Assembly: GCA_030426805.1 (NCBI GenBank)
Contig: JAUHXU010000003.1
Coordinates: 186,001-250,000 of the forward strand
Length of the DNA: 64,000 nt
Origin: a bacterium
GTDB taxonomy: Bacteria > Planctomycetota > JAFGQW01
Reading direction: 5' to 3'
A program made the translations under genes and the position numbers. Below the pieces are notes generated by a model. It was not told the DNA's origin. It ran no database searches and was given only the letters and a program-made list of their open reading frames with translations. Positions 2 through 44,766 of the stretch are shown piece after piece. Position 1 is the first letter of the stretch; the number at the start of each line of letters is the position of its first letter.

Positions 2-253
2 ACGATCGAATACAGCACCGAGTTGTTCGAGGCCGCGACCGTTCGCCGGTTGTTCGAGTGCATGGAGCAAGTGCTTCGCACCGTGATCGACGCGCCGGAC
101 ACGCGCGTCGGCGCGCTGATCGCCGCGATCGACGAGACGGAACGCACGCACGATGCCGAGCGCGAGGCGAGCGCGAAGCAGTCGATGCGCGCGAAGCTCG
201 GCCGCGTCCGCCGTCGTGCCATCCGCCCGTCGTCGCCGGAGCAGTCGTCATGA
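2..253 (+). CDS. C-terminal end of an NRPS protein (partial)
   Basis: Only the last 83 codons lie in the window; the gene starts upstream. The visible start has a Y-S-T-E-L-F strand, then a helix of about 20 residues ending near a V-G-A-L turn. This is how condensation or epimerization domains of nonribosomal peptide synthetases normally end. About 35 charged, strongly basic residues follow. The stop overlaps the start of the aminotransferase gene by 3 nt (ATGA), so the two are probably co-translated and belong to one biosynthetic operon. The type of the truncated domain (C, E or Cy) cannot be told from this piece. Confidence 0.75.
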   Translation, partial: TIEYSTELFEAATVRRLFECMEQVLRTVIDAPDTRVGALIAAIDETERTHDAEREASAKQSMRAKLGRVRRRAIRPSSPEQSS

Positions 254-1284
254 CCGGCGGTGGCAGCTACGACGCGGGGATCCAGCACGGCAAGGAGCGC
301 CTGCTGTGCCTCCACCGCAACGAGAACCTGTTCGTCGGGCCGGACTGGATCGTCGAGCGCGCGCGCGACGTCGCGGCCTCGATCGACGTGCGCTCCTACC
401 CGGATCCCACCGCGTCGACGCTGCGACGCAGGCTCGCCGAGCACCACGGCGTCCCGGTCGAGCACGTGTTCGTCGGCAACGGCTCCGACGAGGTGCTGGC
501 CCTGCTGTTCGCGACGCGACGCGATCGCTACGACGCGATCTCGATGCTCGACGTCTGCTTCAAGGTCTACCCGATGCTCGCCGCGCGCCACGGCTACGCC
601 GCGCGAACGCTGCCGGGCGACACGTTCACGACCGGGCGCATCGACACGCCGACGGACTTCCGCGGCTTCGCGGTCGTCGACTCGCCGAACTCGATCACCG
701 GCGTGCACATCGCACCCGACGACGTGTTGGCGCTCGCAGCCGACCCGGCGGCGTTCGTCGTGTGGGACAACGTCTACGGCGAATACGCCGGTGACCGAAT
801 CCCGGCGGACCTCCCGGCCAACGTCGCGGTCGTCCGGAGCTTTTCGAAGTTCTACGCGCTCGCCGCGCTGCGCGTCGGCTACTGCATCGCCGATCCGTCG
901 GTCGTCGCGGCGCTCGACGCGCGGCGCGACGTGTTCAACGTCAACGGGTTCGCCCAGGCGATGGCCGTCGACGCCCTCGCGCGCCACGACACCTTCGAGC
1001 GCCATCGCACCGAGATGATCGCGTGCCGGCACGACCTCGTGGGCCTCCTCGAGGCCCGCGGGTTTCGCGTGCAGCCGCCGGCCGGCCACTTCGTCTACGC
1101 GGCCCATCGCGAGATCGACGGACCGGAAGTGCAGCGCCGCCTGATGGACCGCGGCGTCGCCGTACGCCATTTCTTCGACCCGCCGGTCGCTGCGCCGTGG
1201 GTGCGCATCACGGTCCCGCCGCGCGCCGGCATCGACCAGTTGACCGAAGCCCTCGACGACGTGCTCGCGGCGACGCGCGGGTAG
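250..1284 (+). CDS. PLP-dependent aminotransferase, HisC-like (class I/II)
   Basis: A 344-residue fold-type I aminotransferase of the usual HisC length. The PLP lysine is K200 in the S-F-S-K motif followed by A-L-R-V-G-Y. The PLP pyridine and hydroxyl contacts sit around D173 and Y176 (W-D-N-V-Y), and the Y-P-D-P and G-N-G-S-D-E segments near the N terminus are typical of histidinol-phosphate aminotransferase relatives. The ATG at 250 overlaps the upstream NRPS stop. The next gene, an alpha-keto-acid methyltransferase, starts 15 nt downstream. In such pairs the aminotransferase converts a keto acid to an amino acid, so a role in making a beta-methyl amino acid for the adjacent NRPS is more likely than histidine synthesis. 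No other his gene is present. The substrate is inferred, not shown. Confidence 0.85.
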   Translation: MTGGGSYDAGIQHGKERLLCLHRNENLFVGPDWIVERARDVAASIDVRSYPDPTASTLRRRLAEHHGVPVEHVFVGNGSDEVLALLFATRRDRYDAISMLDVCFKVYPMLAARHGYAARTLPGDTFTTGRIDTPTDFRGFAVVDSPNSITGVHIAPDDVLALAADPAAFVVWDNVYGEYAGDRIPADLPANVAVVRSFSKFYALAALRVGYCIADPSVVAALDARRDVFNVNGFAQAMAVDALARHDTFERHRTEMIACRHDLVGLLEARGFRVQPPAGHFVYAAHREIDGPEVQRRLMDRGVAVRHFFDPPVAAPWVRITVPPRAGIDQLTEALDDVLAATRG

Positions 1285-1299
1285 TTTGGAGCCTCGACG

Positions 1300-2280
1300 A
1301 TGTCCGGTGAAGCCGCTCGCCTGTTCAACGCCGCGATCGACGCGGCGTCCATCTCCGCCCTCGACGAGGTCGGCTTCTTCGACGCGCTGAAGGCGGACGG
1401 TCGCCTCGACCTCGACGCCTACTGCACGGCCGAAGACCTCCACCGCCCATCGGTCGAGGCGATGCTGCACGGCTTGCAGTGCTTCGACGTCGTGACGCTC
1501 GCCGACGACCGCGGCTCGGTCGTGCCGGGCGCGGCGTTCGACGACGTCTTCCGCAACAAGGGCTACTTCCTGTGGATCGTGCGCGGCTACGGCCGGATGC
1601 TCGAGAACTTCGGGACGATCGTTCGCAACGGCGCCCGGACCGGCGACTACTACGAACGCGACGGCGCGTTCATCGCCCGCGCAGGCAAGGACTACGGCGG
1701 CCAGTTCGTCGACGCCGACTTCGACGCGGTCCTCGCGCAGGCGGCGTTCGCGAAGGCCGCCGACCTCGGCTGCGGGAGCGCGGGCCGGCTGATCGGCCTG
1801 CTGAAGCGGGATCCGGCACTGCGCGGCGTCGGCGTCGAGCGCAACGCCGGCGCGGTCGAGGTCGCCCGCGGCCTCGTCGCCGACGCGGGCCTGTCCGATC
1901 GACTCGAGATCGTCCACGCCGACGTCGGCGCGCTCGAGGCGCACCCGGCGTTCGCGGACGTCGATCTCGTCTTCTCGTTCTTCATGGCGCACGACCTGTG
2001 GCCCCGCGACAAGTGCAAGGTCGCGCTCGACAACATCCACGCGGTCTTCCCGAACACCGCGCGCTTCCTGCTCTGCGACACCTACCGTTCCGATGCGCCG
2101 GCCTCGCCGGACTACCCGATCTTCACGCTCGGCTTCGAGGTGACGCATGCGATGATGGGACAGTACATCCCGAACGTCGCCGAGTGGCTCGACCTCTTCC
2201 GGGACACGAACTGGTCGGTCGCCGGGCAGCACCCGATCGGTATCGCCTACAGCTGCGTGTTCGACCTCCGGAGAAGCTGA
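1300..2280 (+). CDS. SAM-dependent C-methyltransferase, MppJ-like (alpha-keto acid beta-methylation)
   Basis: A 326-residue class I methyltransferase with an N-terminal helical dimerization region (about 1-140) and a Rossmann domain carrying the SAM motif D155-L-G-C-G-S. H231 in A-H-D-L-W-P-R and H283 in T-H-A-M-M-G lie 52 residues apart. In MppJ, the phenylpyruvate C-methyltransferase of mannopeptimycin biosynthesis, the two iron-binding histidines (H243 and H295) have the same spacing and similar surroundings. The motif F-T-L-G-F-E just before H283 also fits my recollection of that family. The expected reaction is methylation of the beta carbon of a 2-keto acid, followed by transamination by the upstream enzyme. 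The gene lies between the aminotransferase and the NRPS with gaps of 15 and 3 nt. The substrate (phenylpyruvate, 2-oxoglutarate, keto-arginine or another) cannot be decided from sequence alone. The MppJ comparison is from memory. Confidence 0.75.
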   Translation: MSGEAARLFNAAIDAASISALDEVGFFDALKADGRLDLDAYCTAEDLHRPSVEAMLHGLQCFDVVTLADDRGSVVPGAAFDDVFRNKGYFLWIVRGYGRMLENFGTIVRNGARTGDYYERDGAFIARAGKDYGGQFVDADFDAVLAQAAFAKAADLGCGSAGRLIGLLKRDPALRGVGVERNAGAVEVARGLVADAGLSDRLEIVHADVGALEAHPAFADVDLVFSFFMAHDLWPRDKCKVALDNIHAVFPNTARFLLCDTYRSDAPASPDYPIFTLGFEVTHAMMGQYIPNVAEWLDLFRDTNWSVAGQHPIGIAYSCVFDLRRS

Positions 2281-2283
2281 CTC

Positions 2284-5200
2284 ATGGGCGAAGCGTTTCC
2301 CCTGTCGCCGCTGCAGGCGCACATCCGGGATCGCGGGGAGGGAGCGCCGCTGACCGTTTCGGGCATCGCGTCCATCACCGGGCCGCTCGACCGCGCGCGA
2401 CTCGACCGCGCGATCGAGGCCGTCGTCGCGGAGCACGAGATCCTGCGCACGACGATCACCGACGTCGACGGGATGCCCGCGCAGGAGATCGGCGACGCGT
2501 CGGTGCTCGAGGTCCACGTCGACGACCACGACGGCGAGACGCTGCTCGCGATCACGGCGCCGGCGGTGTGCGCCGACCCGACCGGCATCGGCGAACTGAT
2601 CGTCGCGATCGCGCGCCACTACGCGGGCGAGACGCCCGACGACGAAGGCCCGATGCAATACGCCGACGTCGCGGCGTGGCAGCTCGACCTGCTCGAAGAC
2701 GAGAGCGACGACACGGGCCGGCGCTTCTGGGCGCGCCGCGCGCTGCCGGCCGACGATCCGCGAACGCCGTACGATCCGACGAGCGCGAATCGCGCATTCC
2801 CCGCCCTCGCGACCGACGACGATCCGGCCAACACGGAGGCCGTGGGGCAACTGGCGAGCGAACTCGGCGTCGAACCGTTCGACGTGTGGCTGACCGCGTG
2901 GGCCGCGGTGCTCGCTCGCGTCGTCGAGCCCGACCGGCAGGGCGAGATCGTCGTCGGCGTCGAGCACGTCGGCCGCGATCTCGACGAACTCCGCGGCGCG
3001 ATCGGCCCGCTCACCCGCCAACTCCCGCACGCGTTCGGCGCGCACGGCGACCGACCGTTCCGCGACGCGGTGCGCGACGTGCATCGCGCACGCGTCGACG
3101 CAGAGAAGTGGGCGCCCTACTTCCGCTGGTCGCCGACGTCCGATGCCGAGCGGCACGGCTGCGCGTTCGCGTTCACGGTGGTCGACGTGCCCGAGCCGAT
3201 CGAGGCCGATGGCGTCCGCTTCGCGATCGAGCACCTCGGCGGCACGGTCGATCGCAACCGCTTCCGGCTCTCGCTGCTGCGGATGGGCGCGGACGTGCAG
3301 AGCTGGATCCTGCGCGGCGGCGACACCGACGACGACAAGGCCGACGACGATGCGCTCCGGCTGCTCGACGCGTGGGGCGCGCTGCTCGCCGGCGCGCTCG
3401 CCGACCCGTCGACGCCGCTCGACCGCTTGCCGCTGCTGAGCGACGATGAGTACCAACGCCTCGTCGTCGACTTCAACGAGACCGACGCGGACTATCCCCG
3501 CGTCTGCATCCACGAGCAGATCGAAGCTCAGGTCGACGCGACACCGGACGCGGTCGCGATCCGCGCCGGGGACCGCGCGATCCCCTACGCCGACCTCGAC
3601 GCGGCCGCGAATCGACTCGCGCACCATCTGCAGTCGCTCGGCGCGAAACCGAACGCGCTCGTCGCGATCGCGCTCGACCGGTCGCCGGAGATGGTCATCG
3701 CGATCCTCGGCGTGCTGAAGAGCGGCGCCGCCTACGTGCCGATCGACCCGGACTACCCCGAAGACCGGATCCGGTTCGTGCTCGAACAGACCGGCGCGAC
3801 GATCGTGCTCACGCGCGAGGCGTACGCCGGCTTCTTCGCCGGCGCCGAGCACGTCGTCTGCTTCGACCGCGACGCCGACGCGCTCGCCGCCTGCTCGGCC
3901 GACCGCCCGACGGCCGCGGTGACGCCGACGGACCTCTGCTACGTGATCTACACGTCGGGCTCGACCGGCCGGCCGAAGGGCGTGATGATCACCCACGAGG
4001 GGCTCGTGATCTCGAACCAGGCGCGGATCGCGTTCTTCGGCGAACCGGTCGGCACGTTCCTGCTCTTGTCGCCGCTCGCGTTCGACAGCTCGGTCGTCGG
4101 CATCTACTGGACGCTGTTGACCGGCGGCACGCTGCTGCTCGTGCCGAAGGCCGCGCAGCAGACGCCGGACCGCCTCGCGCAGACCGTCGCCGACGAAGGC
4201 GTCACGCACCTGCTGACGCTGCCGTCGTTCTACGCGCTCGTCCTCGAGCACGGCACCGCCGAGTCGCTCGCGTCGCTCCGCTGCGCGATCGTCGCCGGCG
4301 AGGCGTGCCCGAAGAAGCTGATCGAACAGCACCGCACGATGCTGCCCGACGCCGGGATGTTCAGCGAGTATGGCGCGACCGAGACGACCGTGTGGGCGAG
4401 CGGCACCGACTGCCTCACGCAGACGCTGAACTTCGCCGCGCTCGGCACGCCGATCGAAAACGCGCAGATGTACGTCGTCGACGAGAACCTCGTGCCGTTG
4501 CCGGTCGGGGTCCCCGGCGAGGTGTGCTTCGGCGGGCCGGCGATCGCGCCGGGCTATCTCAACCGACCCGACCTGACCGAGGAACGGTTCGTGCCCGACC
4601 CGTTCCGCGAGGGCGGCCGCCTCTATCGTTCGGGTGACCTCGCGCGCCACGTCGCGACGGGCGAGATCGAGTTCCTCGGCCGCATCGACAACCAGGTGAA
4701 GATCCGCGGCTTCCGCGTCGAGCTCGAGGAGATCGACGCAGTGCTGACGCAGCACGAAGATCTCCGCGAGGCGATCGTCGACGCGCGTGCGGCGTCCGAC
4801 GACGGCGTGTCGAAACGGCTCGTCGGCTACGTCGCGCCACTGCCGGGCAAGACCCCGTCGATCGATGCGCTGAAGAGCTTCCTCGCCGAGACGCTCCCCG
4901 ACTACATGGTGCCGTCGCAGTGGGTCGTGCTCGCCGAGCTGCCGAAGACGCCGAACGGCAAGGTCGACCGCCGCGCGCTGCCCGATCCGGAACACGCGAT
5001 CGGCGAAGGCTTCGAGGCACCCGCGAACGACGCGGAGCGCACGCTCGCGACGATCTGGTCGGCCCTCCTCGGCGTCGATCCGATCGGCCGCCACGACAAC
5101 TTCTTCGAGCTGGGCGGCGACTCGATCCTGTCGATCCAGGTCGTCGCACGCGCGAAACAGGCCGGTCTCGCAATCACCGCGCGCGACGTCTTCGAGCACC

Positions 5201-8200
5201 AGACGATCGCGGCACTCGCCGAGTGCGCCGGCGGCACGGTCGCGCCGACGACCGCCGAGCAGGGTGCGGTGACCGGCGACGTTCCGCTGACGCCGATCCA
5301 GCACTGGTTCTTCGAGCGCGAACTCCCCGAGCCGCACCACGCGAACATGTCGCTGTTGTTCTGCGCGAACGAAGCGATCGACGTCGACGCGCTCCGCCGC
5401 GCGGGCCAGGCAGTGCTCGACCACCACGACGCGTTGCGGATGCGGTACGCGCACTCCGACGGCGCGTGGCACCAGACGATCGCGGACGCCGAGACGGTCG
5501 TCGTCGAGACGGTCGACGGCGCGGACACCGAAACGATCGAATCGCGCGCCGCCGAGGTCCAGGCCTCGCTCGACATCGCCGACGGCCCGCTGCTGCGCTT
5601 CGTCGTGTTCAACGCAACGACCCCGGAGCCGCGCGTGCTGATCGCGGTGCACCACCTCGTGTTCGACGGCGTGTCGTGGCGCATCCTGCTCGAAGACCTC
5701 GAGGCGGCCTACCGCGGTGGTGCGCTCCGTCCGAAGTCGACGTCGTTCAAGGCGTGGGCCGAGCGGCTCGGCGCCTTCGCGCACGGCGAGGCCGACGGCA
5801 CGATCGACCTCGACGCTGAACACGATCACTGGCTCGCGCCGATCGGCGACGTCGCGACGCTCCCGACCGATCGCGACGCGCCCGCCGAGGACCACACCGT
5901 CGGCACGCAGCACATCCTGTCGCGCACGCTCGACGCGGCCGCGACCGACGCGTTGCTCCACGACGTGCCGCGCGCCTACCGGACGCGCATCGACGACATC
6001 CTGGTCACCGCGCTCCTGCGCACGCTCGCCGAGTGGACCGGCTCGAATCGGATCCACCTCGACCTCGAAGGCCACGGCCGCGAGGAGATCGTGGACGGTG
6101 TCGACCTGTCGCGCACGATCGGCTGGTTCACGACGACCTACCCCGCCGTGCTCGACCTGCCCGCGGGCGACAATGCCGGCGACGCGATCGAGTCGGTGAA
6201 GGCGCAGCTCGGGGCGATCCCGAACCGCGGCATCGGCTACGGGCTCTTGCGCTACCTGCGCGACGACGACACGGCACGCGCGCTCGCCGAGCAGCCGGCC
6301 GCCTCGATCAACTACAACTACCTCGGCCAATTCGACCAGGTGATGGCGGAGTGGCTCCGCCCCGCACCCGAGTCCGCCGGCCCGGACTTCAGCCCGCGCC
6401 AGCCGCGCAGCCACGTACTCGAAGCGTGCGGCCTCGTCGTCGACGGTTGCCTGCGGATGGACTGGACCTACAGCGACCGGCTGCACGACGAGGCGACGAT
6501 CGCGCGGCTCGCCGATGCGTTCACCCGCCACCTCCGCGCGTTGATCGTGCACTGCACGGGCTCCGGCCGGATCGTCGGCGCCGACGCGGCGGACCTCGGC
6601 TGGACCGACGCCGACGTCGACGCGGTGACGCGCGCGGTCACCGCTGCCCACGGCGGCACGACCGACCGCGTCGAGGACGTCTACCCGGTGTCGCCGCTGC
6701 AGCAGGGGCTCCTCTTCCACGCGCTCGCCGAGCCCGACCACGACACCTATTACGAGGGCTTCACGTGCACGCTGCGCGGCCCGGTCGACGTCGACGCACT
6801 CCGCGGTGCGTGGCAGGCGGTCGTCGACCGCTACCCGATCCTGCGCACGGGCTTCGTCTGGGAGGGCGTGCGTCGGCCGGTACAGGTCGTCGAGAAGCAA
6901 GTCGCCGTCGTCGTCCGTGAACTCGATTGGCGCGACGTGCCGCCGAGCGAGCGCGCCGATCGCCTGGCCGCGTTCAACCGCGCCGAGCGGCGCGACCGCT
7001 TCGACCTGACGCGCGCGCCACTGATGCGCGTCACGCTCATCCGCCACGACGACGACACGCACACGTTCGTCTGGGGCTTCCACCACCTGATCATGGACGG
7101 GTGGAGCATGTTCATCGTGCTCGAGGAGGCGTTTCAGAACTACGACGCGCTCGCGGCCGGCGAGAGCATCGCTCGCCCACGCCCGCCGGCCTACCGCGAC
7201 TACATCCGCGAGGTCGCGCGTCGCGACACGACCGACGCGGAACGGTTCTGGCGCGAACGCCTCGCGGGCTTCACCGCGCCGACACCACTCGTCGTCGACC
7301 ACGAGCCGACCGCCCCACCGGCGCAGGGGCTCCGGCAGCGCAAGCTCTCCGCCGACGCGACCGCGCGCCTCGAAGCGTTCGCCCGCGAGCATCGACTGAC
7401 GATGAACGCGATCGTCCAGGGCACGTGGGGGCTCTTGCTCCACCGCTACGCCGGCACGGACGACGTCGTGTTCGGCGCGACGTCGTCGGGACGGACGAGC
7501 GGGCTGGCCGGCGTCGAGGCGATGGTCGGGCTCTTCATCAACACGCTGCCGGTCCGGATGCGGATCGACCCGGAGCGGCCGGTCGTCGAGTGGCTTCGCG
7601 ACACGCAGGTCGAGCAGGCCGAAGCCCTCGAACACGACGCCGTATCGCTCGGTGAAGTGCAGTCGTGGAGCGACGTCGCGCCCGGCCAGCCGATGTTCGA
7701 GACGATCTTCATCTTCGAGAACTACAAGAAGGACACGCCGATCGAGGCGATGAGCGACGCGCTCTCGATCGACGACGTCGACTGGGACGAGTCGACGAAC
7801 TTCGCGATCCGCGCCCACGCGATGCCCGGCGAGCAGATCGAGCTGAGCCTGCTCTACGCGATGGAGCGCCTCGACGCGGCAACCGTCGACCGGATCGCCG
7901 GCCACTGGATCGCGCTGCTCGAACAGGTCGCGGCCGATCCGGCGCGCGCGATCGCCGACCTGCGGATCGTCGCGGGCGACGAACGCGACGCGCTGCTCGC
8001 GACCGCGCGCGCGACGAAGTCGTTCGACACGACCGGCCGCGCGATCCACCACCGCTTCGAGGCGCACGTCGACGCGCGGCCCGACGCGACTGCAGCGGTC
8101 TGCGGCGACGCATCGCTCACCTACGCCGAGTTGGAAGCCGCCGCGAACCGCCTCGCGCATCGGCTGCGGTCGCTCGGCGTCGAACGCGGCGCCCGCGTCG

Positions 8201-10869
8201 GACTCGCGACCGACCGGTCGCTCGACACGGTCGTCGGCATCCTCGGCATCTTGAAATCGGGCGCGGCCTACGTGCCGATCGACCCGACCTACCCGGCCGA
8301 CCGCGTCCAGTTCATGATCGAAGACAGTGACGTCCACGCGATGGTCACGCAGCGCGCGTTCGCCGCGCAGGTGCCGCACGGGCGCACGATCGTCCTCGAC
8401 GCCGACGACCTGTCGGCCGAACCCACGACGCGGATCGATACCGGCGTCGGCGACGACGACCTCTGCTACATCATCTACACGTCGGGCTCGACCGGGCGCC
8501 CGAAGGGGGTGATGCTCCCCCACCGCGCGCCGATCCGACTGCTCGAAGCGACGCACCACTGGTTCGGGTTCGACGAGACCGACGTCTGGTCGATGTTCCA
8601 CAGCTACGCGTTCGACGTGTCGGTGTTCGAGTTGTGGGGCGCGCTCGCGCACGGCGGCGCGATCGTCGTGATCCCGTACGAGGTGAGCCGCACGCCGGAC
8701 GACTTCCACCGCGTGCTGCGCGATCGCGGCGTGACGGTGCTGAGCCAGACGCCGTCGGCGTTCTACCAGATCGACCGGGTCGACGAGCAGCGCGGCGCAC
8801 CGGACGAGCTCGCCGCACTCCGCTGGGTGATCTTCGCCGGCGAGGCGCTCGACTTCGCACGTCTCGCGTCGTGGTTCGACCGGCACGGCGACGAGCAGCC
8901 GCAGCTCGTGAACATGTACGGCATCACCGAGACGACCGTGCACACGACGTTCCGGCGCGTCACGGCCGACGACGTCGCGTCCGGCCGGCGCGGGCGCATC
9001 GGGGTGCAGATCCCGGACCTCGACCTGCACGTGCTCGACGAGCGGATGGAGCCGGCGCCGATCGGTGTCGTCGGCGAGCTGTACGTCGGCGGGCCCGGCG
9101 TCGCGAACGGGTATCTCAACCGCGCCGAACTCACCGCCGAGCGCTTCCTGCCCGATCCGTTCCGCGGTGGCGACGCGCGGCTCTACAAGTCCGGCGACCT
9201 CGCGCGGCGCACCGACGACGGTGACCTCGAGTACGTCGGCCGCAACGACCACCAGGTGCAGCTCCGTGGCTTCCGCGTCGAGCTGGGCGAGATCGAGAGC
9301 GCGCTCGCGACCCACGGCGCGATCCGCGAGGCGGTCGTGCTCGCGCGCGAGGATACCCCGGGCGACGTGCGGCTCGTCGGCTACGCGATCGCGACCGGGG
9401 ACGCGCGGCCGACGATGACCGACCTCCGCGCGCATCTGCTCACGACGCTGCCCGACTACATGGTCCCGGTCGCGGTCGTGTGGCTCGACGCGTTCCCGCT
9501 GACCGGCAACGGCAAACTCGATCGTCGCGCGCTCCCGAGCCCCGACCTCGGCGCCGCGGTGGACGCCGACGCCTACGTCGCGCCGCGCACGCCGAGCGAA
9601 ACGACGCTCGCGGCGATCTGGGCCGACGTGCTGGGGATCGAGCGCGTCGGCGTGGACGACAACTTCTTCGAGCTCGGCGGCGACTCGATCCGGACGATCC
9701 AGATCGTGTCGCGCGCGACCGAAGCCGGACTCACGCTGACGCCGATGCAGCTCTTCCGCCACCAGACGGTCGCCGAACTCGCGCGCCTCGCCGACGACGC
9801 GGCATCGGCAGCACTACCGCTCACGCCGGCGCAGGCGGTCGCACGCCCCGGCGCCGCGCGGGCGATGCTGCTCGACGTGGACGGCGTCGACGCCACGACG
9901 CTCGAACGCGCAGTCCGGGCGCTCCTCGATGCGCACGAAGGACTCCGCGTCCGGATCGCCGACGAAGGCGTGACGATCGCGTCGACACCCGGCGACGTGG
10001 TCGTCCGACGGCTCGACGCGCCGGACGTCGATGGCCTCCGCGCGGAACTCGACCCGGCGGCGGGTGACCTCGTTCGCGCCGCGCTCGTCGACGGCGGCGT
10101 ACTCCTCGTCGTCCACGACACCGGCGCCGACGACGCGTCGTGGCCGCTCGTCGTCGCGGATCTTCGGCGCGCGATCGCCGGCGAGCCACTCGAACCCGCG
10201 CCGTTCTCGGCATGGGCGCGGACGCTCGCCGACGTCGACGCGCCGGCCCTTCCCGAGCCGTGCGACCACACCGACGCGTGCATGCGGCCGCTCGACCCGA
10301 CCGACGCCGACGCACTCTTCGGCGATGCGAACGATGCCTACCGCACCGCCCCCCTCGACCTGCTCGCGGCGGCCGTCGCGCGCGCCCACGACGCGGCGCT
10401 CGCGATCGAGCTGACCGCCGACGATCTCCGCTCGCTCGACGGCTCGTCCGCGCCGGCACGAACGAGCGGCGCGTTCGCCCCGCGCATCGCAGTCGGGTTC
10501 GACGCCCCGAACGACGACCTCGCCGCACACGTGAAGGCGACGAAAGAACGCCGCCGCGCACCCGACGACATCGCGCCGAACGCCGACGTCGCGCTCGCCG
10601 CGCTCGACATCCCCGGCGTCACCCGCGTGTGGGCAACGACTGCAGCCCCGATCGCGATCACTGCAACGCGCGAGGCGCTCCACGCGACGTTCGGCCCGAC
10701 GGCGATCGACCGCCCCGCCGCCGAGCGCCTTCTCGCCGCGACCGCGGACGCATTACGCGACGTCCTCGCCCACTGCCGCGACCCGCAAGCCGGCGGCCTC
10801 ACCCCGTCGGACTTCCCCGACGCCGGCCTCGACCAAGGTCAACTCGACGACCTCCTCGGCCGGCTGTAG
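2284..10869 (+). CDS. Two-module nonribosomal peptide synthetase (C*-A-T-E-C-A-T-E*)
   Basis: A 2861-residue NRPS. Domains in order: a degenerate N-terminal condensation domain (about 1-395; H-H-x-x-x-D-G replaced by A-P-A-V-C-A-D at 92-98); adenylation domain A1 (about 406-905; T-S-G-S-T-G near 557, K893); carrier T1 (S947); a complete epimerization domain (about 1000-1440; H1123-H1124...D1128, N-Y-L-G-Q-F-D at 1345-1351); a condensation domain that follows an E domain and so is probably D-C-L type (about 1463-1905; H1600-H1601...D1605-G); A2 (about 1920-2425; K2411); T2 (S2468); and a degenerate C/E-like tail (about 2510-2861; H-D-T-G-A-D at 2611-2616). There is no thioesterase. My reading of the ten specificity positions gives DSVLIAEVWK for A1 and DVFSIAMVHK for A2; the M-V-H-K ending of A2 recalls threonine-type codes. 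The start follows the methyltransferase stop by 3 nt, with a GGAG about 10 nt upstream. Confidence 0.95.
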   Translation: MGEAFPLSPLQAHIRDRGEGAPLTVSGIASITGPLDRARLDRAIEAVVAEHEILRTTITDVDGMPAQEIGDASVLEVHVDDHDGETLLAITAPAVCADPTGIGELIVAIARHYAGETPDDEGPMQYADVAAWQLDLLEDESDDTGRRFWARRALPADDPRTPYDPTSANRAFPALATDDDPANTEAVGQLASELGVEPFDVWLTAWAAVLARVVEPDRQGEIVVGVEHVGRDLDELRGAIGPLTRQLPHAFGAHGDRPFRDAVRDVHRARVDAEKWAPYFRWSPTSDAERHGCAFAFTVVDVPEPIEADGVRFAIEHLGGTVDRNRFRLSLLRMGADVQSWILRGGDTDDDKADDDALRLLDAWGALLAGALADPSTPLDRLPLLSDDEYQRLVVDFNETDADYPRVCIHEQIEAQVDATPDAVAIRAGDRAIPYADLDAAANRLAHHLQSLGAKPNALVAIALDRSPEMVIAILGVLKSGAAYVPIDPDYPEDRIRFVLEQTGATIVLTREAYAGFFAGAEHVVCFDRDADALAACSADRPTAAVTPTDLCYVIYTSGSTGRPKGVMITHEGLVISNQARIAFFGEPVGTFLLLSPLAFDSSVVGIYWTLLTGGTLLLVPKAAQQTPDRLAQTVADEGVTHLLTLPSFYALVLEHGTAESLASLRCAIVAGEACPKKLIEQHRTMLPDAGMFSEYGATETTVWASGTDCLTQTLNFAALGTPIENAQMYVVDENLVPLPVGVPGEVCFGGPAIAPGYLNRPDLTEERFVPDPFREGGRLYRSGDLARHVATGEIEFLGRIDNQVKIRGFRVELEEIDAVLTQHEDLREAIVDARAASDDGVSKRLVGYVAPLPGKTPSIDALKSFLAETLPDYMVPSQWVVLAELPKTPNGKVDRRALPDPEHAIGEGFEAPANDAERTLATIWSALLGVDPIGRHDNFFELGGDSILSIQVVARAKQAGLAITARDVFEHQTIAALAECAGGTVAPTTAEQGAVTGDVPLTPIQHWFFERELPEPHHANMSLLFCANEAIDVDALRRAGQAVLDHHDALRMRYAHSDGAWHQTIADAETVVVETVDGADTETIESRAAEVQASLDIADGPLLRFVVFNATTPEPRVLIAVHHLVFDGVSWRILLEDLEAAYRGGALRPKSTSFKAWAERLGAFAHGEADGTIDLDAEHDHWLAPIGDVATLPTDRDAPAEDHTVGTQHILSRTLDAAATDALLHDVPRAYRTRIDDILVTALLRTLAEWTGSNRIHLDLEGHGREEIVDGVDLSRTIGWFTTTYPAVLDLPAGDNAGDAIESVKAQLGAIPNRGIGYGLLRYLRDDDTARALAEQPAASINYNYLGQFDQVMAEWLRPAPESAGPDFSPRQPRSHVLEACGLVVDGCLRMDWTYSDRLHDEATIARLADAFTRHLRALIVHCTGSGRIVGADAADLGWTDADVDAVTRAVTAAHGGTTDRVEDVYPVSPLQQGLLFHALAEPDHDTYYEGFTCTLRGPVDVDALRGAWQAVVDRYPILRTGFVWEGVRRPVQVVEKQVAVVVRELDWRDVPPSERADRLAAFNRAERRDRFDLTRAPLMRVTLIRHDDDTHTFVWGFHHLIMDGWSMFIVLEEAFQNYDALAAGESIARPRPPAYRDYIREVARRDTTDAERFWRERLAGFTAPTPLVVDHEPTAPPAQGLRQRKLSADATARLEAFAREHRLTMNAIVQGTWGLLLHRYAGTDDVVFGATSSGRTSGLAGVEAMVGLFINTLPVRMRIDPERPVVEWLRDTQVEQAEALEHDAVSLGEVQSWSDVAPGQPMFETIFIFENYKKDTPIEAMSDALSIDDVDWDESTNFAIRAHAMPGEQIELSLLYAMERLDAATVDRIAGHWIALLEQVAADPARAIADLRIVAGDERDALLATARATKSFDTTGRAIHHRFEAHVDARPDATAAVCGDASLTYAELEAAANRLAHRLRSLGVERGARVGLATDRSLDTVVGILGILKSGAAYVPIDPTYPADRVQFMIEDSDVHAMVTQRAFAAQVPHGRTIVLDADDLSAEPTTRIDTGVGDDDLCYIIYTSGSTGRPKGVMLPHRAPIRLLEATHHWFGFDETDVWSMFHSYAFDVSVFELWGALAHGGAIVVIPYEVSRTPDDFHRVLRDRGVTVLSQTPSAFYQIDRVDEQRGAPDELAALRWVIFAGEALDFARLASWFDRHGDEQPQLVNMYGITETTVHTTFRRVTADDVASGRRGRIGVQIPDLDLHVLDERMEPAPIGVVGELYVGGPGVANGYLNRAELTAERFLPDPFRGGDARLYKSGDLARRTDDGDLEYVGRNDHQVQLRGFRVELGEIESALATHGAIREAVVLAREDTPGDVRLVGYAIATGDARPTMTDLRAHLLTTLPDYMVPVAVVWLDAFPLTGNGKLDRRALPSPDLGAAVDADAYVAPRTPSETTLAAIWADVLGIERVGVDDNFFELGGDSIRTIQIVSRATEAGLTLTPMQLFRHQTVAELARLADDAASAALPLTPAQAVARPGAARAMLLDVDGVDATTLERAVRALLDAHEGLRVRIADEGVTIASTPGDVVVRRLDAPDVDGLRAELDPAAGDLVRAALVDGGVLLVVHDTGADDASWPLVVADLRRAIAGEPLEPAPFSAWARTLADVDAPALPEPCDHTDACMRPLDPTDADALFGDANDAYRTAPLDLLAAAVARAHDAALAIELTADDLRSLDGSSAPARTSGAFAPRIAVGFDAPNDDLAAHVKATKERRRAPDDIAPNADVALAALDIPGVTRVWATTAAPIAITATREALHATFGPTAIDRPAAERLLAATADALRDVLAHCRDPQAGGLTPSDFPDAGLDQGQLDDLLGRL

Positions 10870-11098: not shown

Positions 11099-12628
<1,530 letters not shown>

Positions 12629-41385: not shown

Positions 41386-43092
41386 ATGAACAAAGAGAAC
41401 GTCGAAGCGATCTATCCGGTCCCCGCCGCGCACCAGCCGATGCTGTTCCACGCGATCCGCGGCGGTGACGACCGGGGGTTCCTGCACTACGGCTGCGTGA
41501 TCGACGGCGCGTTCGACCCGGACGCGTTCCGCGCCGCATTCGAGCACGTCGTCACCCGCCACGCCGCACTGCGCACGTCGTTCCACTACGAAGGGCTCGA
41601 CCAGCCGCTCGCGGTCGTCCTGAAGCGCGCCCCGCTCCCGGTGGACGTGCTCGACTGGCGCGACCGACCCGCCGACGAGCACCGGTCCGCCCTCGACGCG
41701 TTTCTCGCCGAGGACAAGGCGCGCGGGTTCGACCTGACGAAGGCGCCGCTGATGCGCCTCACGCTGATCCGTCTGAGCGACACCGCGTGGCAAGAGGTCT
41801 GGAGCCTGCACCACCTGCTGGTCGACGGCTGGTCGGCGTTCCTCGTGCTCGGCGAGTTGTTCGCCGCGTACGATCGCCTCGCGCACGGCGAAGCCGTCGA
41901 CGACGCACCGGCGCGCCCCTACCGCGACTTCGCGCAGTGGCTGGGCCGACGCGACGCCGCGCGCGCCGAGGCGTGGTGGGCCGAAGCACTGGCCGGCATC
42001 ACGGAGCCGACGCCGATCGACGCGATCGCCGGCCCCGCTCGCGCGACCGACGCGATCCGCCCCGAGCGGCTCGACGTCACCCCGGCGACGACCGAGGCGC
42101 TCGAGGCGCTCGCGAAGCGCGAACAGCTGACGCTCAACACGATCTGCGCCACCGCGTGGGCCCACGTGCTCGCGAGCTACGCCGCGCACGACGACGTCGT
42201 GTTCGGCACGACCGTCTCCGGCCGCCCCGCGGACCTCCCCGGCGTCGAGCGCATGGTCGGCGCCTTCACGAACACGGTCCCGGTGCGCATCGCCCTCGAT
42301 CGCGGCGAGTCGCTCGCGAGCGGACTGCGGCGCGTGCGCGACGAACAGCTCGCGATGCGCGAGCACGAGTGGTTGCCGATCGCCGAGATCCAGGCCGCGA
42401 GCGAGATCCCCGCGCGGCACACGCCGTTCGAGACGCTCTACCTCTACCAGAACTACCCGTGGGACGGCTCGCTCGCCGATCTCGTCCGCGACTGTGACGT
42501 CCGTGACTTCCGCTGGGACAACACGACCGACGTCCCGCTGACCGCCGTCGCCCTGCGCGACGCGACGCTCGAACTGTGGATCCACCACGACGCCAACCGG
42601 ATCACCGCCGACGCGGCGCGCGCGATCCTCGCCGACTGGTCCGCGACGCTCGACGCGATCGCGGCCGACGCCCGGACGTTCGCCGACCTGCCGGCAGCGA
42701 CGCGTGGCCCGGCGGCCGAACGCCCCGCGGACACGGCCGCACCGCCCGCCGACGCATCGCCCGCTCCGGCGCCCGGCGATGCGTTCGTCGAACCGCGCAC
42801 CGACGCCGAGCGCCTCGTCGCGGAGCTGTGGCGCGAGACACTCGGTGTCGACGACGTGTCGATCCACGACAACTTCTTCGACCTCGGCGGCTCGTCGGTC
42901 CTGCTGATGAAGGCGGTCACCCAGCTCGAGAAGGAGCACGGCTTCAAGCTCAACCCGTGGGAGATGGTCTTCCAATCGCTCGAACAGGTCGCGACCGTGT
43001 GCGACGAACGCATGAAGGCGGTCGCCGCGAGCGGGGGCCCGCCGAAACGCGGCCTCGCCGGCCGCCTCTTCGGTCGCAAACGAAAGTCGTGA
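41386..43092 (+). CDS. Stand-alone NRPS condensation-carrier (C-T) didomain protein
   Basis: A 568-residue protein. Residues about 5-430 are a condensation domain with the intact catalytic motif H142-H143-L-L-V-D-G-W and the N-T-V-P-V-R motif. A linker rich in alanine and proline (about 435-465) leads to a carrier domain whose phosphopantetheine serine is S504 in D-L-G-G-S-S. The basic tail ends R-K-R-K-S. No adenylation domain is present, so its carrier must be charged in trans or receive a chain from another protein. It is the first gene of a tight operon with two hydrolases and a polysaccharide deacetylase. I chose ATG 41386; a GTG at 41359 would add nine residues. The product could belong to the NRPS cluster at 1-10869 or form a lipid or glycan amide; this is inference. 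Confidence 0.85.
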   Translation: MNKENVEAIYPVPAAHQPMLFHAIRGGDDRGFLHYGCVIDGAFDPDAFRAAFEHVVTRHAALRTSFHYEGLDQPLAVVLKRAPLPVDVLDWRDRPADEHRSALDAFLAEDKARGFDLTKAPLMRLTLIRLSDTAWQEVWSLHHLLVDGWSAFLVLGELFAAYDRLAHGEAVDDAPARPYRDFAQWLGRRDAARAEAWWAEALAGITEPTPIDAIAGPARATDAIRPERLDVTPATTEALEALAKREQLTLNTICATAWAHVLASYAAHDDVVFGTTVSGRPADLPGVERMVGAFTNTVPVRIALDRGESLASGLRRVRDEQLAMREHEWLPIAEIQAASEIPARHTPFETLYLYQNYPWDGSLADLVRDCDVRDFRWDNTTDVPLTAVALRDATLELWIHHDANRITADAARAILADWSATLDAIAADARTFADLPAATRGPAAERPADTAAPPADASPAPAPGDAFVEPRTDAERLVAELWRETLGVDDVSIHDNFFDLGGSSVLLMKAVTQLEKEHGFKLNPWEMVFQSLEQVATVCDERMKAVAASGGPPKRGLAGRLFGRKRKS

Positions 43093-43099
43093 GGGACCG

Positions 43100-43897
43100 G
43101 TGATCGAGCCGAGCTACTTCCCCGCCGGCGATCGCTCGCTCTTCGGCTGCGCCCAGGCGCCGCTCACGACCGCGTCCGGGCTCGGCGTCCTGCTCTGCTA
43201 CCCGATCGGCGACGAGTACATTCGCTTCCACCGCGCGTGCCGCCAGCTGACGATCCGCCTCGCCCGGGCGGGACACGCGGTGCTCCGGTTCGACTACTCC
43301 GGGACCGGCGATTCGAGCGGCGACCTCGAAGACGCCCGCGTCGACGCGTGGGTCGACGACGTCGCGGCCGCCGCCGAACGGCTCCGCGCGATGCCCGGCG
43401 TCACGCGCGTCGCCGCATGCGGCCTGCGCGTCGGCGGCACGCTCGCGATGCTCGCGGGGGCGCGCGGCACCGCCTTCGACGCGCTGTGCTTGTGGGACGC
43501 GGTCCACGACGGCGCGGCCTACGTCGACGAACTCGTGCGACTGCACGCCGCGATGGTCAAACAGTCGCACGTCATCCCGCGACCCGACGAGACGCCCGCC
43601 GGCGTGACGGAGATCGTCGGCTTCCCGTTCGCCGATGCGCTCCTCGACGACCTGCGTGCGATCGACGCCGGCGCGATGCAACGCGCACCGGCGCCACGCG
43701 CCGCGCTGATCGAGAGCCACGCCGACGCGCCGTCGGCACCGCTGCAAGAACGCCTCGCCGCGCTCGGAACCGACGCCGCACTCGAACCCGTGCCGATGCC
43801 CGACTTCTGGCGTTGGGTCGAGGACTACGACAAGGTGCTCGTGCCGAACCCGGTGCTGACTGCGATCGTCGCCTGGGCGCAAGGGCTCGCCTCGTGA
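43100..43897 (+). CDS. Alpha/beta hydrolase-like protein, exosortase-A-associated hydrolase 2 type
   Basis: A 265-residue alpha/beta-hydrolase fold protein. The H-R-A-C-R-Q-L and F-D-Y-S-G-T-G-D-S-S-G segments are intact, but the nucleophile elbow reads G108-L-R-V-G-G, with arginine where a hydrolase would have serine. The same G-L-R-x-G form is known to me from the exosortase-A-system-associated hydrolase 2 family, so the change is probably ancestral and not a mutation. Whether such proteins hydrolyse anything is unclear. The GTG start at 43100 is preceded by GAGGGA; the stop overlaps the next start (GTGA). No exosortase gene or PEP-CTERM protein is present in the window. Confidence 0.7.
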   Translation: MIEPSYFPAGDRSLFGCAQAPLTTASGLGVLLCYPIGDEYIRFHRACRQLTIRLARAGHAVLRFDYSGTGDSSGDLEDARVDAWVDDVAAAAERLRAMPGVTRVAACGLRVGGTLAMLAGARGTAFDALCLWDAVHDGAAYVDELVRLHAAMVKQSHVIPRPDETPAGVTEIVGFPFADALLDDLRAIDAGAMQRAPAPRAALIESHADAPSAPLQERLAALGTDAALEPVPMPDFWRWVEDYDKVLVPNPVLTAIVAWAQGLAS

Positions 43898-44766
43898 TCG
43901 CCGAGCGGACCTTCGTCTTCGGCGACCCGGCCACGCAAGTCGCGGTCGTCACCGAGCCCGACGCGCCCCGCGACGACCTGCCGGCCGTCGTACTGCTCAG
44001 CTCCGGCATCATCCATCGCCCCGGCCCGAACCGACTCTACGTTCGGATCGCGCGCAGTCTCGCAGCGCGCGGCTACCGGGTGATGCGCTTCGACTTCTCC
44101 GGTATCGGCGACAGCGGCCAACGGCGCGACGCGACGCCGTTCGTCGAGCGAGCGGTCGGCGAGGCGCGCGAGGCAATGGACCGGCTCGAGCGCGAGTGGG
44201 GGGTGACCCGCTTCGTCCTCACCGGCCTCTGCTCGGGCGCCGTCGTCGCGTATCGGACCGCGCTCGTCGACCCGCGCGTGGTCGGCGGCGGCCTGATCAA
44301 CGGCGGCGGCTTCTTCATCGGCACCGACACCGAAGCGGTCGTCGAGGCGACGCTCGCTCGGCACTACAAGCGCATGACGTTCTCGAGCTCGTTTCGCGCG
44401 AAGAACTGGAAGAAGGCGCTGACCGGCGGGGTCGACTACCGTGGCATCCTCGTCAACGCCGCGCGCGCACCGCTGCGGATCCTCGCGAGCCTGAAGCCGA
44501 AGACCACGGCGTCGTGGAGCGACGGCACCGACGAGTTCACCGCGCTCGATGCACGCGGCGCAAAGCTGTTGATGATCCACTCCGAGGGCGACGACGGGCT
44601 CGACTACGTCGACGTCGTGCTCGGCGAGAAGAAGCAGCAGTGGATCGACCGCGGCGTGCTCCGGTTCGAGGTCGTGCCGGCGGCGAACCATACGTTCACG
44701 CTGCTGTGGAGCCAGCGCCGGCTGCTCGACCGCCTCGACGCGTGGTTCGCGGAGACGTGGGGCTGA
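43894..44766 (+). CDS. Alpha/beta hydrolase, exosortase-A-associated hydrolase 1 type
   Basis: A 290-residue alpha/beta-hydrolase fold protein. It has R-F-D-F-S-G-I-G-D-S-G and a nucleophile elbow G111-L-C113-S-G-A, with cysteine in the nucleophile place, which is the form I associate with exosortase-A-system-associated hydrolase 1. It also has a late acidic region (E-G-D-D-G-L-D-Y) and a histidine in A-N-H-T-F-T that suit the rest of a triad. The start is a GTG overlapping the upstream stop, and its own stop overlaps the deacetylase start, so the four genes are one translationally coupled operon. The likely role is in processing an acylated or peptide-linked envelope polymer; the substrate is unknown. 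Confidence 0.7.
   Translation: MIAERTFVFGDPATQVAVVTEPDAPRDDLPAVVLLSSGIIHRPGPNRLYVRIARSLAARGYRVMRFDFSGIGDSGQRRDATPFVERAVGEAREAMDRLEREWGVTRFVLTGLCSGAVVAYRTALVDPRVVGGGLINGGGFFIGTDTEAVVEATLARHYKRMTFSSSFRAKNWKKALTGGVDYRGILVNAARAPLRILASLKPKTTASWSDGTDEFTALDARGAKLLMIHSEGDDGLDYVDVVLGEKKQQWIDRGVLRFEVVPAANHTFTLLWSQRRLLDRLDAWFAETWG

Follow-up and report, generated by a model that had tools for sequence, protein, structure and literature searches.

An operon predicted to make and use beta-methylated histidine in a planctomycete genome

The beta-carbon methylation of alpha-keto acids is best represented, for the purpose of this work, by MppJ, the phenylpyruvate beta-C-methyltransferase of the mannopeptimycin pathway. 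Two further keto-acid C-methyltransferases, SgvM (alpha-ketoleucine) and MrsA (2-ketoarginine), act on aliphatic keto acids; in SgvM the metal ligands are H244 and H296, likewise 52 residues apart as in MppJ, and a metal-enol step was proposed for this enzyme (PMC10502145). On the side of peptide assembly, the adenylation code DSALIAEVWK is listed among the histidine codes in a 2025 survey and also accepts the beta-hydroxy form (PMC12283262). The ergothioneine and ovothiol pathways (EgtD, EgtB/OvoA) comprise N-methylation and sulfur addition, with no methylation of the beta carbon. beta-Methylhistidine is described as a synthetic amino acid for locking side-chain angles (PMC3116161), and no natural biosynthetic route to it was found in the literature searched.

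An operon is described here that lies in a 64-kb stretch of planctomycete DNA (the window, which belongs to a draft genome that is 90.8% complete). This conserved gene set very probably serves to methylate a keto acid and to incorporate the unusual amino acid formed from it into a small peptide. It is likely that this amino acid is a beta-methylated histidine, which the operon would both make and use; its substrate, order of steps and product are what we infer from protein families, active-site residues, adenylation codes and conserved gene order, all read from sequence.

Operon layout and the MppJ-type methyltransferase

The first gene of the operon begins 5' of the window and encodes a stand-alone condensation protein; its stop (253) and the start of the aminotransferase gene (250) overlap by 4 nt. 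Features are provided in window coordinates.

1-253, + strand: 3' end of the stand-alone condensation protein gene (516 aa; whole gene C6:184703-186253, that is, -1297 to 253; Pfam Condensation match C6:184772-186118)
250-1284, + strand: HisC-like PLP aminotransferase (344 aa; ATG at 250; Schiff-base lysine K200 in SFSKFY)
1300-2280, + strand: predicted MppJ-type metal-dependent alpha-keto acid beta-C-methyltransferase (326 aa; H231 and H283 as metal ligands; F228, Y262 and Q288 as residues of the subfamily)
2284-10869, + strand: NRPS (2861 aa; Cx-A1-T-E-C-A2-T-Ex)
2284-3453, + strand: Cx, condensation-like domain of the NRPS (APAVCAD in place of HHxxxDG)
3484-4998, + strand: A1, adenylation domain (code DSVLIAEVWK; predicted substrate beta-methylhistidine)
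5404-6648, + strand: E1, epimerisation domain (HHLVFDG intact)
6670-7998, + strand: C2, condensation domain (HHLIMDG intact)
8056-9516, + strand: A2, adenylation domain (code DVFSIAMVHK; closest to domains with DFWN(I/V)GMVHK)
9814-10866, + strand: Ex, C-terminal epimerisation-like domain (degenerate, VHDTGADD)
11099-12628, + strand: AbgT-family transporter (Pfam PF03806, 646 bits), directly 3' of the NRPS gene
41386-43092, + strand: C-T protein lacking an A domain, with two alpha/beta hydrolases encoded behind it (43100-44766)

The order aminotransferase, methyltransferase and NRPS, with gaps of 15 and 3 nt, had been noted in an earlier sequence-only reading and agrees with these coordinates. 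That reading had proposed a beta-methyl amino acid formed via an alpha-keto acid, which is supported here at the level of the family; its pathway stands as far as it was given and was incomplete, since the amino acid, the upstream condensation gene and a second locus were missed. The AbgT-family transporter is a possible exporter, and the C-T protein with its hydrolases could supply a later condensation and release step of the same line, the pathway membership of both being uncertain. An extension of the pathway further downstream was dropped, as the genes scanned at 12.8-26 kb are unrelated or without assignment.

The best solved match of the methyltransferase is MppJ (phmmer against 4KIB, E 1.1e-59), at about 35% identity and over query residues 6-323, near full length. 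The two histidines previously picked out as metal ligands, H231 (FMAHDLWPR) and H283 (FEVTHAMMG), 52 residues apart, align with MppJ H243 and H295 in this comparison, and the match is not due to chance because neither varies in any of the 87 proteins aligned. The positions of MppJ R127 (R120 in YYERD here) and D244 are each conserved in 86 of the 87. An AlphaFold model of the enzyme (pLDDT 93.7; input of 25 family members) has as its best PDB match in Foldseek 4kic_B, an MppJ complex that contains SAM and a phenyl keto acid, at TM 0.93 and rmsd 1.6 A; SgvM and MrsA come next, with O-methyltransferases behind these. By sequence and modelled fold the enzyme is a true MppJ relative, in agreement with the family first assigned to it. 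It is like MppJ in fold, in the spacing of the metal histidines, in R127, D244 and W99 and in its NRPS neighbour, whereas MppJ H98, M240, T274 and V300 are replaced by L, F, Y and Q; residues of the subfamily differ from the MppJ half at these positions, among others. Also unlike MppJ, the window enzyme is paired with a HisC-like aminotransferase, a histidine-type A domain lies downstream and the predicted substrate is imidazolepyruvate. SgvM and MrsA share the overall fold and, as predicted for the window enzyme, the keto-acid chemistry, but only 18-24% identity in the structural match.

Related loci in other genomes

Relatives of the methyltransferase were sought in one genome per species (84,980 species), which gave 80 loci. 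Nine of these, at about 51% methyltransferase identity, come from Planctomycetota, KSB1 and one further bacterium, and in all nine the methyltransferase directly precedes an NRPS module with an A1-type domain. The condensation gene is kept in seven relatives (44-47% identity) and the aminotransferase in six (48-56%), while some of the other stretches end too early to tell; in three loci both genes are found in opposite orientation and therefore move as a unit. Beyond the common module the lines diverge: KS-AT-KR-ACP-C occurs in L022 and L030, L025 has a KS start, and L021 continues with C-A-T and then KS-AT. The constant core is the methyltransferase, the aminotransferase, the condensation protein and one amino-acid module. 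Only 2 of 392 genomes from the phylum of the window have the methyltransferase, which makes it rare there. Sulfotransferase-family genes adjoin the cassette in two KSB1 relatives (L020:6782-7798 and L021:4692-5699), which suggests a sulfated product in these organisms.

A second locus, encoding an NRPS and an SHMT-like protein, is located about 750 kb from the cassette (C6:943815-948984; L097:11815-16984). Its NRPS has a partial C-A-methyltransferase-T organization with the code DMYHLGMMDK, the methyltransferase lying inside the A domain, and its condensation domain carries a truncation that is conserved. Because homologous pairs of NRPS and SHMT-like protein (44-50% and 56-60% identity) share the methyltransferase neighbourhood in L017, L025 and L030, it is probable that a single pathway is divided between two locations in the window genome. 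For two of the plasmid domains nearest to the DMYHLGMMDK domain the codes were determined, and they resemble neither this code nor one another.

In the methyltransferase tree the window protein, the nine cassette relatives and three cyanobacterial proteins form one group (support 92/92), and this group is nested in a set of 17 (support 100/97). Here the methyltransferase usually has a HisC-like aminotransferase as its neighbour, which is mostly not the case in the MppJ part of the tree. In Roseofilum halophilum BLCC-M91 a HisC gene (321 bits, cut-off 276.5) follows the methyltransferase, and two EgtD-type histidine methyltransferases are encoded 5' of it on either side of an OvoA-type sulfoxide synthase (581 bits, cut-off 400), so that a sister methyltransferase and its HisC are located in an operon of the ergothioneine/ovothiol kind; neither EgtD nor OvoA was found in the window cassette. 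The operon-like run (L023:6526-13325) comprises EgtD, the OvoA-type protein, EgtD, the MppJ-type methyltransferase, HisC and a 2OG-Fe(II) oxygenase-like protein, and is a candidate pathway to a C-methylated thiohistidine. Both Calothrix homologues of the methyltransferase are likewise followed by HisC-like genes, with a Calothrix partner at 303 bits, above the hisC cut-off of 276.5. Upstream of the Calothrix pairs lie differing flavin oxidases (L026:7696-9120 and L028:7182-8783), one cytokinin-dehydrogenase-like and the other pyridine-nucleotide-disulphide-oxidoreductase-like.

The predicted amino acid and competing explanations

The code of A1, DSVLIAEVWK, has nine of the ten residues of DSALIAEVWK, the difference being a valine at code position 239. 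Code positions were located with the GrsA PheA core as a guide, the spacing of which matched the published numbering between 235 and 517. All nine relatives in which the methyltransferase lies beside the module have DSVLIAEVFK, two positions off the histidine code. Of the 77 other A domains encoded close to MppJ relatives, not one has the pattern DS.L.AEV. When a plasmid collection was searched with the whole A1 domain, five of the six top records read carry exactly DSALIAEVWK (Methylocystis twice, Caballeronia twice and Trichormus) and the sixth does not; these neighbours are called histidine-activating from their own code only. Unlike DSALIAEVWK modules, its nearest plasmid relatives by whole-domain search, the window module has the valine at 239, a preceding dead condensation-like domain and an adjoining methyltransferase gene. 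A1 is predicted to load beta-methylhistidine.

The top NCBIfam model of the aminotransferase is hisC (TIGR01141) at 178 bits, below the curated cut-off of 276.5 and hence outside HisC membership; cassette relatives score 190 and 201 bits, also below it. The Schiff-base lysine is retained in all aligned aminotransferases. Counting against the beta-methylhistidine reading, the enzyme is the best hisC match in its own genome and therefore could double as a histidine-biosynthesis enzyme; counting for it, no HisC-like aminotransferase was detected at E 1e-15 in the one other genome of the same family. It is predicted to be a histidine/imidazolepyruvate transaminase.

Given the A1 codes, their plasmid neighbours, the HisC-like aminotransferase and the Roseofilum operon, beta-methylhistidine formed via imidazolepyruvate is the most likely amino acid. 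In the proposed route the aminotransferase would convert histidine to imidazolepyruvate, which the metal held by H231 and H283 would bind, favouring the enol; SAM would then methylate the beta carbon of the enol, and the aminotransferase, or another one, would restore the amino group to yield beta-methylhistidine. A1 would load this residue, E1 would invert its alpha carbon and C2 would join it to a second, threonine-like residue. The latter follows the whole-domain plasmid search, which places A2 beside domains with DFWN(I/V)GMVHK, a code that we take to be that of threonine; the codes of A2 and of the second locus had no match in the literature searched. Neither the Cx of the window nor that of any of the eight aligned relatives has HHxxxDG, and Cx is probably not catalytic. 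The stand-alone condensation protein probably acts in trans and would form the bond that Cx cannot, as suggested by the two travelling together, although its motif is FHxxxDG in the window versus HHxxxDG in seven relatives.

The enzyme could instead be an MppJ-type keto-acid beta-methylase with another substrate, such as phenylpyruvate, in which case A1 would load plain histidine and the beta-methyl residue would enter at another module or pathway. MppJ itself uses phenylpyruvate (4kic/4kif complexes), DSALIAEVWK serves plain histidine, and HisC-like enzymes accept other aromatic amino acids and can be promiscuous. However, the histidine-code module is the sole constant partner across Planctomycetota and KSB1 while the other modules vary, the subfamily and the MppJ half have different residues at MppJ positions 98, 240, 274 and 300, and the Roseofilum operon is composed of histidine enzymes, which together make this alternative unlikely.

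It is considerably less probable that the gene set is a decaying remnant that yields no product in the window genome, whatever its role in the relatives. The degenerate Ex, the FHxxxDG of the condensation protein, the absence of a thioesterase domain from the 2861-aa NRPS in the domain scan, the division of the pathway over two loci and the long branch of the methyltransferase are in line with such decay. Against it, all cassette reading frames are open, the motifs of A1, E1, C2 and the methyltransferase are retained and a phosphopantetheinyl transferase is present in the genome; the loss of the Cx motif is not recent decay, since it is common to all aligned relatives. That the enzyme is an ordinary small-molecule O-methyltransferase with a retained fold is hardly credible and was rejected: Pfam matches it to generic methyltransferase models only, but the top match by both phmmer and Foldseek is MppJ, keto-acid C-methyltransferases lead the fold matches and both metal histidines are invariant, the opposite of the sequence result that the earlier sequence-only reading had named as refuting its own proposal.

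A possible imidazolepyruvate lineage and the wider subfamily

Extending the beta-methylhistidine reading beyond the window, we tentatively propose, with rather less than even confidence, that the enzymes on this branch of the MppJ family form a lineage dedicated to the beta-C-methylation of imidazolepyruvate. It would feed beta-methylhistidine to at least two chemistries, namely the peptide and peptide-polyketide lines of Planctomycetota and KSB1 and the EgtD/OvoA-type operon of cyanobacteria such as Roseofilum, leading to C-methylated thiohistidine. If the beta-methylhistidine reading holds, both a natural route to this amino acid and an enzyme at hand for making it would be new. The range of substrates of the keto-acid C-methyltransferases, which already serve as biocatalysts, would grow by one, and a chemically specific prediction would be available for planctomycete and KSB1 genomes. 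Such compounds could be traced by a methyltransferase that has Q at MppJ position 300 and is encoded next to an A domain with DSVLIAEV.

In the actinobacterial sister loci HisC-like genes also adjoin the methyltransferase, and the stretch covered there has no A domain of the histidine type; for this reason other keto acids may be substrates in the wider subfamily. Three Streptomyces plasmids (L014, L015 and L016) encode MppJ-type methyltransferases in which MppJ position 300 is T, adjoining genes for a thiamine-diphosphate enzyme and acyl-CoA dehydrogenases and with no aminotransferase annotated nearby; there the methylated keto acid may be used without conversion to an amino acid.
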